Assembly: GCA_009886205.1 (NCBI GenBank) | Contig: QXZU01000119.1 | Location: 1 to 46,954, forward strand | Length of the DNA stretch: 46,954 nt | From: K189A clade bacterium | GTDB lineage: Bacteria > Pseudomonadota > Gammaproteobacteria > Pseudomonadales > Azotimanducaceae | Direction: 5' to 3' | Part shown: positions 32,219 through 46,185 of the stretch, one piece after another | Position numbering within the stretch: position 1 is the first letter of the stretch | Layout of the letters: each line of letters starts with the position of its first letter | The notes under the pieces: generated by a model | The model's input: the letters and a program-made list of their open reading frames with translations, nothing else | What the model was told of the DNA's origin: nothing | Databases searched by the model: none | Made by a program: the position numbers and the translations under genes

Positions 32219-32246
32219 GTGAAACCGAACCTTAGACCGGTTTCAC
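32219..32246 (-). repeat. Perfect 9-bp inverted repeat spanning the carboxylase stop codon
   Basis: GTGAAACCG and CGGTTTCAC are separated by 10 bases that contain the stop codon of the giant carboxylase. It could stabilise the mRNA end or act with the neighbouring dyad in termination. Confidence 0.6.
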
Positions 32247-35200
32247 TACGAAGAGCAGGTCCCCTACATTGACCTGCTGGCCATTACTGATATTCACCCG
32301 CGTCACCTGATAACTGCGGCTGGGGTCATACACCTCCCCGTCCAAGTTAAAGTCTTTCAGCGTCAATGGGTTGAATATCTTCATCGCTTCCAACTGACAG
32401 AGCGTTTCTGTCAAGCCAATCTTCTGCCCCACGGCCACATACTCTGGCTCTGAGGGAGATGGCGCGCTGTAGAAAATTGCCGTAGCGGGCGCAAGCACCT
32501 TCAACTCATCAGTGCCATCAATGCGCACCGCGTTGCTGTCAATGTTTTCACCCTTAGCACCGCTGTTAGACTCTATGTCGCTTATCAGCGCCTCGATATC
32601 AATACGCTGCAACATCTCTGGCAGATAATTGGTGTCGTATATACCCTTCCGGAAGGTTTCGTCAGCAAGGATCATGCGCAGCAGAGGAATGTTGGTGCAG
32701 ATACCGGTGATGACCACTCGGCTCAGATAGTCAATTAGCTTATCTGCCGCCGCATCTCTTGATTCAGCGTGAACCACCAGTTGCGCGACCATACTGTCAT
32801 AGTAAGGCGAAACAAACTTGCCCGGCCCTACTGTGGCAATGATTTCAACACCATCCTCTTCAGGGAATACACACTCGTCTATTTGCCCTGGGTGCGGTCT
32901 AAATACTACGTCACCGTTAGCTTGAACCACCAATCTTTCGGCAGTGACTCGCGCTTCAATTGAATAGCCATTGTCAGCAATTTTAAGGTCAGCGATGGAT
33001 TCGCCAGAAGCAATCCTAAACTGTTCCGCAACAATGTTTACACCGGAAGTCCACTCTGTGACCGGGTGCTCGACCTGCAAACGGGTATTCATTTCCATGA
33101 AATAAACAGCATTTGAGCGCAGGTCGTAAATAAATTCTACGGTGCCTGCACCCACGTACCCTACCTCATCAGCAATATCTGCCGTGGAACGTAAGACAGT
33201 GGCAAGCAAGTCTTCAGGCAGCATGGTGGAACCAGACTCCTCAATAACCTTTTGCTTGTCGCGCTGCACACTACAATCTCTAATACCCAACACGCGAGTA
33301 TTGCCATGGGTATCGCGCAACAATTGGGCCTCAATGTGTCGCAGTGAAGTAACGTATTTCTCTAAATACACATCGCCGTTACCAAAAGCGCTACGCGCCT
33401 CTAAACCCACACGATGAAACAGTTGCTCGAACTCTTGAGCACCTTCTACAACTTGAATACCTTTACCACCGCCACCGTGCACGGCTTTGATTAGAATCGG
33501 GTAACCTATATCCAGAGCAACCTCTGCCGCTCGTTCAACATTAGTCATGATGCCGTGGCTGCCGGGTACAACAGGGACCTTCAATCTCAATGCGGTGTTA
33601 ATAGCATTGGACTTATTACCCATAGTTTCCATGCTGGAAACTGGCGGCCCAATAAAGTTGATGCCTCTGCTTCGCACTAATTCAGCAAAACCTGAATTTT
33701 CAGAGAGGAATCCGATGCCCGGATGCAAACTGTCTACACCTTCATTTTCGGCAACGTTCAGAACACTCATAGCGTTCAGGTAACTTTCATCTGGAGTATT
33801 ACCGCCAATACATACAACGGTGTCTTGGGGGCGTAATTGGTCTACTGCCATGGACTCCATATCTGGGTCACTTTGCACCAACACAACGTCTACATTTTGC
33901 TGCTGCGCAATACGAATGAGTTTCGCAGCAGTACAACCTCGGGCATGAATCAATACTTTACGGGTTGGGCGAATCAATTCTTCGTCAGTAAAGACTGGCC
34001 TTTGTGCCACAACAATAGGACGCTGCTCTTCTAAGCCACCGGACAAAATCCCGGCAATAACGTCTTCTACAGAGTCCTTCGGATGAGGTATGTCCGCATC
34101 TACTTCAGCCAGATTGTCCTCTAACTCGGAATAAAATGGATGTTTAACCAAACCCTGCATAGAACCAGGAGTGGCGGACAGATAGTTGGAGAGGATGGAC
34201 TTCAAGGGCAAGTTTGAAGAAACAACAATTTGCCCAGCAAAAGGCATACTCGTACCTGAGAAATAGTAGGTCTGCACCAGTGGGTGCGTTACAAAACTTG
34301 CTTGCGCGCCACCTGTGCAATCGCCGTATCCAAAAATAATAACCGGCAGATCATGATCTCTGACAAATCGTGTAATTCGATCGTTTACCGCAGCCATTGA
34401 AAATAGCGCGCCCGCCCCTTCTTTGGTTTGCATACCTCCAGAGGATATAAAGCAAACCACTGGCAAGCTCTGTTCTGCACACTCTACCAATAAACGACAA
34501 ACCTTTTCCGCACTGGCCATATCAAAGGCGCCAGCTTGGAATTGCACATTGGAAATAACTACGCCAACACGTGGGTTAGCTATAGCGCCTTCGTTGGTTT
34601 CTTTTAACGTTCCAATACCGGTAACGACACCACAAGGCGGCAAATCGTTATTAAGAGCGCTCTCTATAGACAGTCTGAACCCGGGAAACGAACACGGATC
34701 AGAACTAAGCAAATCATCATAGCGGTTTTCCCATTGATCAAAATAGCGATCAATGATGTCTTGATAACCAAACTTATTGTTAGCTTTAACTTTACGTAAA
34801 ACGCCCTGCATTTGCAGGTCGTTATAAGCCATATCTAAGCGATTCCAAAAATCCTTACGCCGCCCAATATTGCGCGGCGTGATACGCCCTTGATAATTCT
34901 TTCCATCTCTTTCAGCAACAACATAAGAGTTAAACAACGTGCTAAAGAAATAAGTCACAATAACGAACAAGGCATCAGCCAGATGCGCAAAACTTAATTT
35001 CTTCCACTCTTCTACTGTGCGGAAAAACTCGCTACCTTTAGGCATCTTTAAAATGCGCTGATACCAATCAAATAGCTGATTTTTCAGAGCTGCCTGCTCG
35101 ACCGGATCACTCACAGAAATTTTGAGCATCAGACCCGCCGCAGACACAGCGCCGTCTATCAACTTCTCAGCACTTCCTAGTGACAACACTTGATCTGTTT

Positions 35201-37085
35201 GTGCTTCATGAGCGATGGTTTCTAAACGGCCAATTGCCTCATCGTAAAAGGCATCAAACAAGAGCAAGTTCTCGCACTCTTTAATGAAGTCTTGGCGCAA
35301 CTCATCGTTAAGTAAAACGTCGAGAATCGTCATATCCGCAATCGCAATGGGTTCACCACCATTTGCTAACGCGGCGATCATTCCTTCGGACAAGGCAACC
35401 AAATAACTTCTGTTAGCCTTAACATCAGAGCCTTCTCCACCCTCTACCAGGCGGGGACCAGTAATGAGCATGTTTAGCTCAGCGGTCAACTGTTTTGCCA
35501 CAAAGGTATCGGACAATCCAGCGACGCTTTGTTCCACCAAGAGTTTTTTGCCTTCGTAGGAAAAACGCTCTTGCAGCAACGATTGCAAACTAGCGTTGTT
35601 CGCGGCCACGACAAGAAACTCTCGTGGGCTCTTAACGTCTGTAATTTGCAATATATGACGAGTATCTTCGTGTTTCTCTAAATAGCTCTTCAGCGATTCT
35701 AGATTGCCCGCAGCCTCTTTCTTCCAACGATTATAAAGGAACGCCCCTACCGTTGAGAGAATGTTATGTCTGGCAAGCTCATAATTTTCTTTGGGTTCGC
35801 CAAAAATCATTTGCGCAATGCGACCACGCTCGTCGTTCATTGCTTGCCGCTTGTCTGTGTAGTTGCGCCACGATTTAGAAAGCGCTTCGTCATAAACCAC
35901 TTTGTCTGGGTCTTGTAACCAATAAAGGAAGGTCTGGCGACGTTCGCGATCGGCGCGAATATGCAGTTCACCAGAGGGAATCTCTTGGCTCGCTAGACGG
36001 CCATATTGTTGAACACTGGTCGCCTTGATACGTTTGCGTACTTGCAAGTAGCGCAGATACCGATAAGCGATACCAAAAACGTTGACGTATTCTGTTGGAT
36101 TTCTTGTCAACGTCAGTGAGGCGCTGTTTTCCATTGCCTGCAATTGGCTAGAAGGCTTCAGGTATCGCAAAAGGCTTTGCTTATAGTGATCTAAGATATA
36201 TGGGTTTTCCGCCACAAAGTCTTTGGTCAAGTTTTCAATATTTACAATACTGCCGACCAATGCGCTGCGCAGTTTTTCAATTTGTTGCGGTGGATCATTG
36301 GGGCTGTAGTCGACAATGGCGTCAATATTGCCCTGAGCATGGAGTTCAGGCGCTGACAAGCCGACGTACTTTGCACATTCCTGCCAAGATAAATTTAACC
36401 GCCTGGCAATATTCGCCAAACCAGCAGGTTGGATGGTACTGAAAACACCGTCGCGCAGACACAAGATCAAATTACTTGCAGCCAAAGGTATCGCGCCACC
36501 AGAGTACCCTACTCCGTAAATGACCCCTACTGTGGGTACGTCTACGTTACTCATTTCTGCAATAAGGCGACTGATACTGTGGGCTTGATTATTCGCGTTG
36601 GCTTCTTCGCCTGCGTCCGCGCCCGGAGTGTCCATAAAACTAACCAAGGGAATGGCTCTGGCAGAACAATATTCTGCGAAAGATGCAGCGCGCAAATGGT
36701 GCTGGGGCATCCAACTGCCTTTTTCACTGGATCTGTCTTGGGCAATAAACCCTACCGGGCGCTTTTCGCCGCCAGGAAAGTCCATAAGCAGCACGGCTTG
36801 ATAAAACGGCCCTAAGCTGTCCTCTTCTACCACTTTGCCTAATTGTCTGATTATCGCTGGCGCTGGTTCGCGACCTTGAGCTTCGGCGGGAGCAACAACA
36901 GACTCTATATAGGCGTCTATATCGAGCGCGGAGAGTTTGTCGTTGAGTTGTTCAATATCGTGTTTTGACAATAATCCGGGAACAGGTTGTTCCTCTTGCT
37001 TGATGTCAGGAAACGATGAAAAGTCTTTTGCTAGGTTCTCGGCGATAAAAAAAAGCCTATCCCCTTCAATGAGCTGTTTTTGCAC
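32232..37085 (-). CDS. Single-chain biotin-dependent acyl-CoA carboxylase (CT-alpha, linker, CT-beta, BC, BCCP)
   Basis: 1617 residues. Residues about 85-310 resemble AccA (SFMDTPGADAGEEANANNQ, YGVGYSGGAIP). About 330-780 is a mostly helical, uncharacterised stretch. About 800-1010 resembles AccD without its zinc ribbon (FISSGGMQTKEGAGAL, FGYGDCTGGAQASF). About 1040-1500 is biotin carboxylase (LHPGIGFLSEN, KAVHGGGGKGI, MEMNTRLQVEHPVTE). The C-terminus is a biotinyl domain with EAMKIF; Lys1569 should carry biotin. All residues needed for ATP use look intact. The acyl-CoA substrate is unknown. The order differs from the usual separate Acc subunits and from the known long-chain carboxylases. The start is GTG, without a clear ribosome site. 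It is divergent from moaB. Confidence 0.9.
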   Translation of the reverse strand: MQKQLIEGDRLFFIAENLAKDFSSFPDIKQEEQPVPGLLSKHDIEQLNDKLSALDIDAYIESVVAPAEAQGREPAPAIIRQLGKVVEEDSLGPFYQAVLLMDFPGGEKRPVGFIAQDRSSEKGSWMPQHHLRAASFAEYCSARAIPLVSFMDTPGADAGEEANANNQAHSISRLIAEMSNVDVPTVGVIYGVGYSGGAIPLAASNLILCLRDGVFSTIQPAGLANIARRLNLSWQECAKYVGLSAPELHAQGNIDAIVDYSPNDPPQQIEKLRSALVGSIVNIENLTKDFVAENPYILDHYKQSLLRYLKPSSQLQAMENSASLTLTRNPTEYVNVFGIAYRYLRYLQVRKRIKATSVQQYGRLASQEIPSGELHIRADRERRQTFLYWLQDPDKVVYDEALSKSWRNYTDKRQAMNDERGRIAQMIFGEPKENYELARHNILSTVGAFLYNRWKKEAAGNLESLKSYLEKHEDTRHILQITDVKSPREFLVVAANNASLQSLLQERFSYEGKKLLVEQSVAGLSDTFVAKQLTAELNMLITGPRLVEGGEGSDVKANRSYLVALSEGMIAALANGGEPIAIADMTILDVLLNDELRQDFIKECENLLLFDAFYDEAIGRLETIAHEAQTDQVLSLGSAEKLIDGAVSAAGLMLKISVSDPVEQAALKNQLFDWYQRILKMPKGSEFFRTVEEWKKLSFAHLADALFVIVTYFFSTLFNSYVVAERDGKNYQGRITPRNIGRRKDFWNRLDMAYNDLQMQGVLRKVKANNKFGYQDIIDRYFDQWENRYDDLLSSDPCSFPGFRLSIESALNNDLPPCGVVTGIGTLKETNEGAIANPRVGVVISNVQFQAGAFDMASAEKVCRLLVECAEQSLPVVCFISSGGMQTKEGAGALFSMAAVNDRITRFVRDHDLPVIIFGYGDCTGGAQASFVTHPLVQTYYFSGTSMPFAGQIVVSSNLPLKSILSNYLSATPGSMQGLVKHPFYSELEDNLAEVDADIPHPKDSVEDVIAGILSGGLEEQRPIVVAQRPVFTDEELIRPTRKVLIHARGCTAAKLIRIAQQQNVDVVLVQSDPDMESMAVDQLRPQDTVVCIGGNTPDESYLNAMSVLNVAENEGVDSLHPGIGFLSENSGFAELVRSRGINFIGPPVSSMETMGNKSNAINTALRLKVPVVPGSHGIMTNVERAAEVALDIGYPILIKAVHGGGGKGIQVVEGAQEFEQLFHRVGLEARSAFGNGDVYLEKYVTSLRHIEAQLLRDTHGNTRVLGIRDCSVQRDKQKVIEESGSTMLPEDLLATVLRSTADIADEVGYVGAGTVEFIYDLRSNAVYFMEMNTRLQVEHPVTEWTSGVNIVAEQFRIASGESIADLKIADNGYSIEARVTAERLVVQANGDVVFRPHPGQIDECVFPEEDGVEIIATVGPGKFVSPYYDSMVAQLVVHAESRDAAADKLIDYLSRVVITGICTNIPLLRMILADETFRKGIYDTNYLPEMLQRIDIEALISDIESNSGAKGENIDSNAVRIDGTDELKVLAPATAIFYSAPSPSEPEYVAVGQKIGLTETLCQLEAMKIFNPLTLKDFNLDGEVYDPSRSYQVTRVNISNGQQVNVGDLLFVVKPV

Positions 37086-43385: not shown

Positions 43386-43943
43386 ATTCTGTTTATATAT
43401 TGTTTTAGATCAACTCCTAGGCACGCCTAAGGGATTAAGCGCGCCCATCCACTGATCAAATTGAAGCCGCCAATTGTATAGCCTTATCAGCGACGGTGTC
43501 AGATTTTCCACAGCAAAACCCGAAAGTCGCCTATTCTCAAACAGGACCAAGCTCGCGCTGAAAAGCTGCCGGCGAGGCGGCTTCTGAGTCGCATCTTGAG
43601 CTGACGAAATCCACCAAAAATATACAAATCCACATCAAACTGCCTCCAGCAAATTTAGCCAACTCGCGAAAAATGCCGCCACCGGGCCAAAACAAGATAT
43701 TCGCAGCTACCACTTGCGGCAATTCTTGCCGCTACTGTCGCCTAAGAACTACCGTCAATCGACACGTTAAATAAATGCCGACTAATTTAGTGAATAGTTC
43801 AGAAACATGATGATGGAACAAACACTCTCTCAAAGTTGATTTTTTCGCATCAGATAAAAGAGAACTTGTTAAGTCTCAATGAAACGAAAGTTAGGTAGAC
43901 AAAAGTTGAACCTAAAAAGTTAAACCTAAAAAGGATGACAATT
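43386..43943. other. 558-bp intergenic region before the bufferin-type operon
   Basis: No credible gene lies here; a 61-codon minus-strand frame has no support. It contains a perfect 7-bp hairpin at 43716-43732 (GCGGCAA, TTC, TTGCCGC) without a T tract. Near the end, 43901-43932 holds a direct repeat, AAAAGTTGAACCT / AAAAGTTAAACCT, directly before the ribosome site of the precursor gene. This is a likely place for the operon promoter and for a metal- or ECF-sigma-responsive control, but I could not assign -35/-10 boxes with confidence. Confidence 0.6.
43901..43927 (+). repeat. Direct repeat in the bufferin-type operon leader
   Basis: AAAAGTTGAACCT is followed at once by AAAAAGTTAAACCT (one mismatch over 13 shared bases), ending seven bases before the first ATG. 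It may be a regulator site or part of the untranslated leader. Confidence 0.7.
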
Positions 43944-44405
43944 GTGAATACACAAATGAAAACTAAATTGACCGGCATCGCATTAGCCGTAGCAGCTGCT
44001 GGATTAGTAGGCTGCGAGTCTTCTGGATCTTCTTCAGCGGCAGCATCAGCAAGCAACTCAACCGACCTTGTGCATTGCTATGGTGTGAACGCATGTAACG
44101 GTCACAACGACTGTAAAACTGCGAGCAACGCCTGTAAGGGTCAAGGCGCATGTAAAGGTCAAGGCTTCGTAGCATTGCCATCTAAGGCATGTGCTGACGT
44201 TGGCGGCGAGCGCAGAGACGACTGGAGTGGCAGCATTGCTTCTGCAGACCTTTCTCATTGTTATGGTGTCAACGTTTGTGGCGGCCACAACGATTGCAAG
44301 ACAGCTGGTAATGCCTGTAAAGGACAAGCTGGATGTAAAGGACAAGGTTTTGTTGCAGCTCCTGCTAAAGCCTGTGCTGATATCGGCGGCAAGGTTGGCG
44401 CTTAA
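43944..44405 (+). CDS. bufA: Bufferin-type RiPP metallophore precursor with two six-Cys cores
   Basis: 153 residues from GTG 43944, chosen because AAAGGA lies eight bases upstream; ATG 43935 (on top of the ribosome site) and ATG 43956 are alternatives. A signal peptide ([19 protein letters not shown]) ends in a lipobox-like LVGC with Cys24. A Ser/Ala linker follows, then two 48-residue copies of a core with Cys at relative positions 5, 11, 17, 24, 30 and 43 (HCYGVN, HNDCKTA, NACKGQ, KGQGFV, KACAD). The copies match at 39 of 48 residues. It is followed by MNIO and DUF2063 genes, as in bufferin operons, whose precursors bind copper after cysteine modification. The 6/12-Cys type fits this protein. 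Confidence 0.88.
44064..44207 (+). repeat. First 48-codon six-Cys core module
   Basis: Encodes residues 41-88 of the precursor (Cys45, 51, 57, 64, 70, 83). Same length as the second module, 39 of 48 residues identical; third codon positions have diverged, so the duplication is not recent. Confidence 0.9.
44247..44390 (+). repeat. Second 48-codon six-Cys core module
   Basis: Encodes residues 102-149 (Cys106, 112, 118, 125, 131, 144). It is separated from the first module by a 13-residue linker, [13 protein letters not shown]. Confidence 0.9.
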
Positions 44406-45306
44406 TAGCGGCCCAACGACTCCGACCAGTAGCTCTGCTAATGGTCGGAATCTCTCGTCCAATAAAAAAAACGCTAAGCCCTACCTCGGATTTGGTCTTG
44501 GCTTAAGAACTGAACACTTTCAAGAAGTCATTGATTCTGAACCGGCTGTTGATTGGTTCGAAATTATTTCTGAAAACTTTATGGTAAAAGGCGGCAAGCC
44601 TAAATATTACCTACACAAAATTCGTGAACGCTACCCTATGGTCATGCACGGTGTTTCGCTGTCTATCGGCACCACCGACCCAATCAACTTTGACTATCTA
44701 CGCAGCCTGAAAACTCTGGCCAACGAAGTTCAGCCTGAGTGGTTATCAGATCACCTATGTTGGACTCAACATGGCGGCATCAATAGTCACGACCTTTTGC
44801 CACTGCCCTATACAGAGGAAGCGCTCGAGCACGTAAGCGCCCGGATCAGCGCAACCCAAGATTTCCTCGGCCAACAAATACTTATAGAAAATGTCTCCAG
44901 CTACCTCACTTACAATGATTCTTCAATTAGTGAGTGGGAGTTTTTATCGGCTGTGGCGGAAAAAGCCGATTGCCTGATTTTGCTAGATCTAAACAACATC
45001 TACGTCAGCGCACGTAATCACGGTTTCAATACAGAGGAATATTTAAATGGTATTGATCCGGCGAGAGTTCAACAATTTCACCTTGCTGGCCATACCGACT
45101 ATGGCGATTACGTCATCGACACTCATGATCACGATGTGGTGGATTCGGTCTGGGACCTCTACGCAAAGGCCATCCTCCGTTTTGGCCCGGTCAGTACAAT
45201 GATCGAGAGAGACGACAACATTCCACCACTTGCTGATTTGATCAGTGAATTAGATATGGCCAGAGCCATCGCTGCCGAAAATCCTCTTCATCTGCAAGTA
45301 CGATAG
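44395..45306 (+). CDS. bufB: MNIO (DUF692) enzyme for precursor modification; start/frame ambiguous
   Basis: The body is a typical MNIO protein, a TIM-barrel multinuclear iron oxygenase that modifies cysteines: [72 protein letters not shown] and MIERDDNIP carry the conserved His, Asp and Glu ligands. The coordinates give the only uninterrupted option, TTG 44395, overlapping bufA by 11 bases and adding about 30 atypical residues. ATG 44441 is better placed but in the neighbouring frame; a -1 shift on the eight A at 44464-44471 would join [10 protein letters not shown] to NAKPYLGFG, giving a family-like N-terminus. The next gene, bufC, is 22 bp downstream. Confidence 0.88.
44421..44449 (+). promoter_or_regulatory. 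Intercistronic hairpin between bufA and bufB
   Basis: TCCGACCAGTAGC and GCTAATGGTCGGA pair over 13 positions with one mismatch around the loop TCT. The hairpin starts 15 bases after the bufA stop and buries ATG 44441. No T tract follows. It may be an mRNA processing or stabilising element that keeps the precursor message more abundant than the enzyme message. Confidence 0.75.
44464..44471 (+). other. A8 slippery run at the start of bufB
   Basis: In the frame of ATG 44441 the run reads ATA AAA AAA ACG, containing the heptamer A-AAA-AAA. A -1 shift yields AAA AAA AAC in the MNIO frame. A ninth A in the genome would also place the ATG in frame, so homopolymer error is an alternative. Confidence 0.6.
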
Positions 45307-45328
45307 TTCGGTCCTCGACAAACAGAAC

Positions 45329-46105
45329 ATGTTAGAACAACAGCAAAACCAACTCATGGCTTACTTGCGTAATGAAGAGAGCCAAATTGAAGCACATATT
45401 GCCGATCAAGGCGGCGTAGCCATTGAAGTGCGTCTAGGCATATATAGAAATGCTTACAACATGCGCTTAAGAGAAGCGATAGAAGTAGACCACCCTGTTT
45501 TAGGCGTTTACCTTGGCGATGATTTGTTCGACCTTATGGCCGCTGAGTATGTTAAGCACTGCCCCTCATCACGTACGTCATTGCGCCACTTTGCTGACCA
45601 GTTACCGGGATTCTTGGCGCGCACAGAGCCCTTTTGCGAACACGGGCAGATTCCTGAACTGGCTAGATTTGAGAGGCTGTTAATGACTGCCTTCGATGCA
45701 GCTGAGGCAAATAGAGTAGCCAACGAGGCGTTAGCTGAACTCCCGGTAGAGGAGTGGCCGGACACAACCCTACGCTTTCATCCGAGCATGCAAATCTTCA
45801 GTACGCAGTGGAATGTTGTGGAAATGTGGCAAGCCATACGCGAGGAGCGAGAACCCCCTCCGCCAATTGAGCGCACAAACCATTGGTTAGTGTGGCGAAA
45901 CTCAAAACGGCTAACAGAATTTGCTTCCATTACCGGTTTAGAAGCTGAGCTGCTGCAAAGAGCGCTTCAAGGCAAAAACTTAGCCGAACTCTGTGAATTT
46001 TTGGCAGAGCACCTCGAAGAAAACAGAGTGGCTGAAACCTTCCTACAGATCATGCGTTCTTGGCTAGGCAAAGGCACTATTACCTCGCTGCACTTAGCGA
46101 CATAG
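45329..46105 (+). CDS. bufC: DUF2063-family partner protein of the MNIO enzyme
   Basis: 258 residues. The N-terminal region (QLMAYLRNEESQIEAHI, then RLGIYRNAYNMRLREAIEVDHPVLGVYLGDDLFDLMAAEYV, and HCPSSRTSLRHFADQLPGFL) is the DUF2063 putative DNA-binding domain, which in RiPP systems acts as precursor-recognition partner of DUF692 enzymes. The C-terminal part (HWLVWRNSKRLTEFASITGLEAELLQ) fits the winged-helix-like second domain of BufC/HvfC proteins. It is third gene of the operon, 22 bp after bufB. No DoxX or ECF sigma gene follows, unlike many relatives. Confidence 0.9.
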   Translation: MLEQQQNQLMAYLRNEESQIEAHIADQGGVAIEVRLGIYRNAYNMRLREAIEVDHPVLGVYLGDDLFDLMAAEYVKHCPSSRTSLRHFADQLPGFLARTEPFCEHGQIPELARFERLLMTAFDAAEANRVANEALAELPVEEWPDTTLRFHPSMQIFSTQWNVVEMWQAIREEREPPPPIERTNHWLVWRNSKRLTEFASITGLEAELLQRALQGKNLAELCEFLAEHLEENRVAETFLQIMRSWLGKGTITSLHLAT

Positions 46106-46185
46106 CAAAAACTGAAAACACCCGTCAAACAATTTCCAGTCGGCGTACCCTTCCTTGGCAACCGGCGATGACACAAAAAGAGTGT

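Follow-up and report, generated by a model that had tools for sequence, protein, structure and literature searches.

The bufABC set of the window, i.e., the whole analyzed stretch of 46,954 nucleotides from a contig of a K189A clade bacterium, is, judging by its sequence, a member of the Buf2 bufferin family in its doubled form, and consists of genes for a Cys-rich precursor with two six-Cys cores (BufA), an MNIO enzyme (BufB) and a partner protein (BufC). It is highly probable that BufB and BufC oxidise core Cys and that the precursor is exported, lipidated at Cys24 and binds excess copper. Both the doubling and the lipoprotein signal are already in print, and the locus is ordinary for the wider field; what it offers is a well-delimited chromosomal bufferin of the 12-Cys lipoprotein kind from the marine Gammaproteobacteria, together with an empty site in a sister genome. 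The modest additions of this work are the association of lipobox and doubling, the empty site, the unusual bufB start and, above all, the ladder variants described below. A three-gene set had been placed at positions 43944-46105 in the initial annotation of this DNA, and the genes were indeed found there, in the order bufA-bufB-bufC that is conserved in the relatives (Table 1).

Table 1. Coordinates of the features of the bufABC locus in the window.
Feature	Positions	Strand	Basis
bufA: Buf2 (BufA2) precursor, 153 residues, predicted lipoprotein, 12 core Cys	43944..44405	+	NF050166 match
Cys24, lipobox cysteine (LVG-C-E)	44013..44015	+	sequence and pattern test
N-terminal six-Cys core, residues 44-88	44073..44207	+	sequence
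C-terminal six-Cys core, residues 105-149	44256..44390	+	sequence
bufB: MNIO (DUF692) enzyme	44395..45306	+	start TTG 44395 inferred; NF050167, PF05114
bufC: PME-type 1 partner, DUF2063 + NGO1945_C domains, 258 residues	45329..46105	+	PF09836, PF22106
accessory segment: bufABC and its upstream region, missing from congener G091	43522..46172	.	G091 prfC-rimI gap alignment

GTG 43944 is most likely the start of bufA, because AAAAGG lies upstream at the usual distance and an ATG occupies the same place in the congener L027 (the alternative is an in-frame ATG at 43935); the stop codon is at 44403-44405. Comparison of the precursor with the bufferin and DUF2282 families, proposed in the initial annotation, gave a match in two stretches to NCBIfam BufA2 (NF050166), with 142.7 bits against a cut-off of 60 and E = 3.1e-42, and none to DUF2282 in Pfam at E up to 1. 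The earlier view that the core is unlike the four-Cys DUF2282 type and belongs to the 6/12-Cys type thus holds, and DUF2282 (Buf1) membership of this 12-Cys protein was rejected. The BufA2 E-value, reached in two stretches, and the E-values of the BufB, PF05114 and DUF2063 matches given below show that the set is not a product of chance. All 12 Cys of the two cores are kept, as had been claimed, with a spacing of 6-6-7-6-13 in each; the identity of 81% over 48 residues reported before is better given as 82% over 45 columns, or 37/48 when 48 residues are counted from each His. There are no EGKCG repeats in the BufA sequence.

Residues 1-23 of BufA resemble a signal peptide of the Sec type, judged by pattern only, and end in LVG, which is followed by Cys24 and Glu25. 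LVG-C24 fits a PROSITE-like lipobox pattern, applied here to BufA and its relatives alike. The precursor had been called secreted, but the lipobox had been missed and BufA is a predicted lipoprotein. An AlphaFold model built from 28 sequences (mean pLDDT 69.6; 39/153 residues at 90 or more) has two halves with a similar order of elements; a PDB search with this model gave no match at E up to 0.001, and no solved structure for BufA was found by sequence.

BufB, correctly described at the outset as a DUF692 MNIO enzyme, passes the cut-off of NCBIfam BufB (NF050167; 383.1 bits, cut-off 310, E = 5.7e-115) and matches PF05114 (373 bits, E = 9.4e-112), and the solved structures that match it are 3BWW, 8HCI and the MbnB entries. 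In a comparison of 80 MNIOs, polar positions were chosen by their conservation in 97% or more of the enzymes, and BufB keeps 31/31 of them (for this count and that of the partners, MNIOs shorter than 230 residues and partners shorter than 200 were dropped). Directly after the ERD motif, 70 of these 80 enzymes, BufB of the window included, have Asp; an Asp replacing Phe beside the catalytic Asp is given as typical of the Cys-Lys (BufB2-type) MNIO group in the available excerpts of PMC13097082.

The frame of BufB ends at 45306 and its conserved part begins near 44488, and no ATG, GTG or TTG stands between the bufA stop and the first conserved BufB residues, so that, with no usual start codon downstream of bufA, translation of BufB is not certain. 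The nearest in-frame start is TTG 44395, located inside the end of bufA, eight bases before its stop codon, and coupled translation of bufB from the bufA end would be the simplest reading. Conservation of this TTG proves little, because the GGKVG end of BufA already implies it. Among 14 loci examined, a downstream start is missing in the window, L028, L023, and L034, and at least one candidate is present in the other ten.

In the case of BufC, the DUF2063 assignment made earlier was borne out, both PF09836 (DUF2063; 66.3 bits, E = 3e-18) and PF22106 (NGO1945_C; 31.3 bits) being over their cut-offs. With 258 residues and a DUF2063 plus an RRE-type domain, the protein corresponds to a PME-type 1 partner (about 250-260 residues), and it keeps 8/8 polar positions shared by 97% or more of the 77 partners compared; a search by sequence found no solved structure for it. 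The set is assigned to the Buf2 bufferins because the BufA2, BufB, DUF2063, and NGO1945_C cut-offs are passed, DUF2282 is absent and HvfC reaches only 64 bits. From the layout of bufferin/HvfABC systems named in the initial annotation, the bufferin part therefore stands, with the curated cut-offs of BufA2 and BufB passed and the order bufABC, whereas the HvfABC part was the looser one, since the cut-offs of HvfB and HvfC are missed.

The set is flanked by prfC, encoding peptide chain release factor 3 (856 bits, cut-off 473), and rimI (TIGR01575; 112.8 bits, cut-off 86.4), both on the minus strand, and neither DoxX nor a regulator or metal transporter adjoins it in the window, which speaks against the proposed function. 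Upstream of bufA no known box of a metal-responsive promoter was recognised, and conserved blocks are common to the window and three congeners. Promoter- and terminator-like matches at the locus are at chance level, and Rfam gave no match there. Elsewhere in the window (32238-36785, minus strand), a 1516-residue protein joins acetyl-CoA-carboxylase-type carboxyltransferase domains to biotin carboxylase domains.

Within the genus, bufABC is accessory, a BufA2 match being present in 5 of 40 genomes. A single contig carries both prfC and rimI in 29 genomes of the genus, the window's included; between these genes, 22 of them have a gap of no more than 185 bases, three have 2753-2803 bases that contain bufABC, and four have a gap of another length. 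The gaps of the latter four congeners range from 670 to 2195 bases, that of G107 (L162) being about 1 kb. G125 has its set divided between two contigs, with prfC and rimI again as flanks, and in G105 BufA2 is found on another contig, its own prfC-rimI gap having 81 bases. According to prfC, the genome closest to the window is G091 (88.2% DNA identity), followed by G128 (86.8%), G125 (84.0%), and G094 (83.1%). The gap of G091 (L161), of 154 bases, aligns to window sequence that breaks off at 43521 and resumes at 46173, which makes it a clean empty site, and no BufA2 or MNIO match was found elsewhere in this genome (89% complete). As this closest congener has neither match, bufABC is dispensable, and as more distant congeners carry it at the same site, one gain with a later loss in G091 would be the shortest history.

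As to the chemistry, the modified Cys, the metal and the localisation, we infer the following course. Cytoplasmic BufB, together with BufC, would recognise BufA while it still bears its signal peptide and would oxidise Cys in its two six-Cys cores, the most likely products being 5-thiooxazoles, with the loss of four hydrogens per Cys; the inner four Cys of each core are predicted to be modified, and the first and last to form a disulphide. Sec would export the modified BufA, which would then receive its lipid at Cys24 and, having Glu at position +2, would probably move to the outer membrane, where the tethered protein would bind excess copper. In the excerpts available on Buf1, this bufferin is described as carrying thiooxazoles formed from Cys, which bind both Cu(I) and Cu(II). 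Lipidation of an MNIO-modified precursor was shown for DybA, and the same signal was predicted for some bufferins, as stated in excerpts of the preprint PMC12636315, in which bufferins with signal peptidase II signals are listed.

Compared with the Buf2 bufferins (Buf_6/12Cys) as presented in the accessible part of PMC12452194, nothing essential differs: the precursor family, the bufABC order, the duplicated domains, the Sec-type signal and the DUF2063 partner are the same, and the window has the lipobox and the duplication together on an accessory chromosomal segment. Two six-Cys cores are also found in the 12-Cys Buf2 of Cognaticolwellia aestuarii modelled in that paper (66% identity in the best segment), and a lipobox is likewise present in locus L079 of this species. 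Buf1 (DUF2282) shares an outer Cys pair and inner Cys, and the structural models are said there to be related, but it has four Cys and belongs to another family, in contrast to the 12-Cys BufA of the window. The RiPP-lipoprotein hybrids DybA and NedA, in the passages available from PMC12636315, similarly combine an MNIO-modified precursor with a signal peptidase II signal, although DybA is modified by a ChrH-like MNIO and NedA is an oxazolin, both unlike the bufferin of the window. In the captophorins (HvfABCX oxazolin and fontiphorin), an MNIO and a DUF2063 partner also act on a Cys-rich precursor with a signal peptide; however, their precursors have EGKCG repeats in place of the CYGVN-NDC-NAC-CKG core of BufA, and their MNIOs have Phe beside the catalytic Asp where BufB has Asp (PMC13097082, available excerpts).

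The same enzyme class and partner type might let one take the set for an HvfABC/oxazolin-type system, the probability of which is close to nil. HvfABC membership was rejected by the family scores (272.8 bits for BufB against HvfB, cut-off 360; 64.1 bits for BufC against HvfC, cut-off 142), EGKCG repeats are lacking, and the genome possesses a separate HvfABCX-like set on contig C171 (L126:5268-7806). The EGKCG precursor of the latter reaches 36.1 for the KCGExKCG domain (cut-off 19.5) and 36.4 for full HvfA, below the cut-off of 95, and its MNIO scores 422.7 with HvfB (cut-off 360); HvfC (260.5, cut-off 142) and HvfX (221.9, cut-off 80) are also encoded there. MNIOs 37-41% identical to BufB occur in 18 of 40 congeners, this genome included, among which only its own copy was typed. 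It is also worth mentioning, as a point against the function proposed for bufABC, that in Microbulbifer a related EGKCG cluster was undetected in the proteome with or without added copper, according to the part of PMC12538549 at hand.

A bufferin cluster serving another metal or stress (gold, zinc, mercury or oxidative stress), with copper binding incidental, is unlikely. In its favour, gold-induced gig operons were the first bufferin clusters to be noticed, there are fusions with MerC (excerpts of PMC12452194), and no copper gene adjoins bufABC; against it, the same excerpts report that Buf1 of Caulobacter and, in preliminary work, Buf2 act in copper homeostasis. Even less probable, in our estimation, is that BufA is exported with little or no modification, BufB being poorly translated or decaying, which would leave a plain Cys-rich lipoprotein. 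Such decay would agree with the start-codon situation of bufB and with the set missing from G091, but the BufB frame is open with every strongly conserved polar residue kept, coupled translation from TTG 44395 or another start would be easy, and the relatives without a downstream start also keep BufB. The modified, copper-binding Buf2 lipoprotein is the reading that we prefer.

For comparison with other Buf2 systems, 80 named loci were kept out of 130 confirmed relatives, found with stretches of the query in a search that favours close relatives. Seventy of them (L026-L095), many from Pseudoalteromonas, Colwelliaceae, and Shewanella, have two six-Cys cores and, with the window, L021, and L023, constitute 73 two-core loci. 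In these, the MNIO gene follows in 72/73 and the DUF2063 gene in 69/73 (window included), the exceptions being L083 with neither gene, L026 and L057 at contig ends, and L077 with an MNIO fragment only. The two-core Buf2 precursor of L083:3980-4444 (Shewanella sp. OPT22) has no MNIO or partner match in roughly 4 kb downstream. Loci L018, L019, L020, and L022, on the same contigs as L026, L028, L027, and L063, were dropped before the counts, L001-L017 and L106-L125 were left out of them, and L024 and L025 (G010 and G011; BufA2 matches under the cut-off), missed by the core profile, are in no count. The minus-strand ORF of L101 was dropped from the core comparison and the lipobox count. Across the class, 370 sampled genomes with a completeness of 90% or more include 70 that pass the BufA2 cut-off; among plasmids, 17 records contain relatives, none of which reaches 80% coverage of the query.

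The six Cys are present without exception in 146/146 cores. The nearest core outside its own protein is an N core for the N core in 69/73 and a C core for the C core in 63/73, many near-copies being among the 73. As N cores are nearest to N and C to C, and the doubled form is so widespread, a duplication private to this genome was rejected. One ancient duplication, which should separate N and C cores into clean clades, received no support either: in the tree of 69 cores (from 29 two-core proteins left after thinning, plus 11 single cores) it needs 16 and 17 changes, a single clade of C cores is rejected by the AU test (p 0.019), and the cores of L023, L091, L034, and L084 pair with the partner from their own protein. 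With its 45 columns, the alignment is too short to tell repeated duplication from gene conversion.

A lipobox of the PROSITE-like pattern is present in 59/73 two-core precursors and 9/43 six-Cys precursors (odds ratio 16, Fisher p 3e-10), a comparison that is not corrected for kinship and in which the 12-Cys precursors had been collected for their similarity to the query; with a narrower pattern the counts are 53/73 and 7/43. The 43 six-Cys precursors came from the 30 best-scoring class-wide loci and ten named loci without doubling, the four-Cys ORF of L142 being dropped. The sorting of lipoproteins follows the residue after the Cys, and this residue is never Asp in the 68 lipobox precursors; therefore, outer-membrane sorting is the default prediction. 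According to the available part of Antoine et al. 2025 (PMC12452194), 12 Cys occur in the 10% of Buf2 not having 6, and lipoprotein signals in about 16% of Buf2; no link between the two is drawn in that part.

Another way of enlarging the Cys content was found in single-core precursors with 10 Cys (L096:4258-4635, L097:4715-5059, L098:4218-4565, and L102:4258-4644, the sequence of the last also being in L164), which sit beside six-Cys lipobox precursors, before the MNIO gene. Their spacing, 6-6-7-6-7-6-7-6-13, has two additional 13-residue steps of inner Cys and a single outer pair, and the three that were scanned (L097, L098, and L102) pass the BufA2 cut-off. In L165:1272-2756, three tandem Buf2-like precursor genes are followed by one MNIO and one DUF2063 gene, and the third precursor (BufA2 66.1, over the cut-off) carries 12 Cys in one core with a spacing of 6-6-8-6-8-6-8-6-9-6-13, a lipobox-like Cys and a His-Gly-rich stretch. 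The available excerpts of PMC12452194, in which we found no mention of ladder-extended precursors (our literature search on them was brief), state that the modified Cys of Buf2 are unidentified and that Buf1 is modified at its central Cys, with a disulphide between the outer two.

As the ladder variants multiply the inner Cys with a single outer pair, like the Buf1 pattern, they suggest that the inner Cys of Buf2 may be the modified residues, and comparing them is a simple test of which Cys the enzyme modifies. It is conceivable, though we propose it tentatively, that Buf2 raises its load of modified Cys in two ways, by core doubling and by ladder steps of 13 to 15 residues, and that the doubled form is preferentially an outer-membrane-tethered copper sponge; if this is true, the inner Cys would be the MNIO substrate and the outer pair structural. 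BufA of the window has two outer Cys pairs and eight inner Cys, whereas the ladder precursors have one outer pair and a longer inner ladder.
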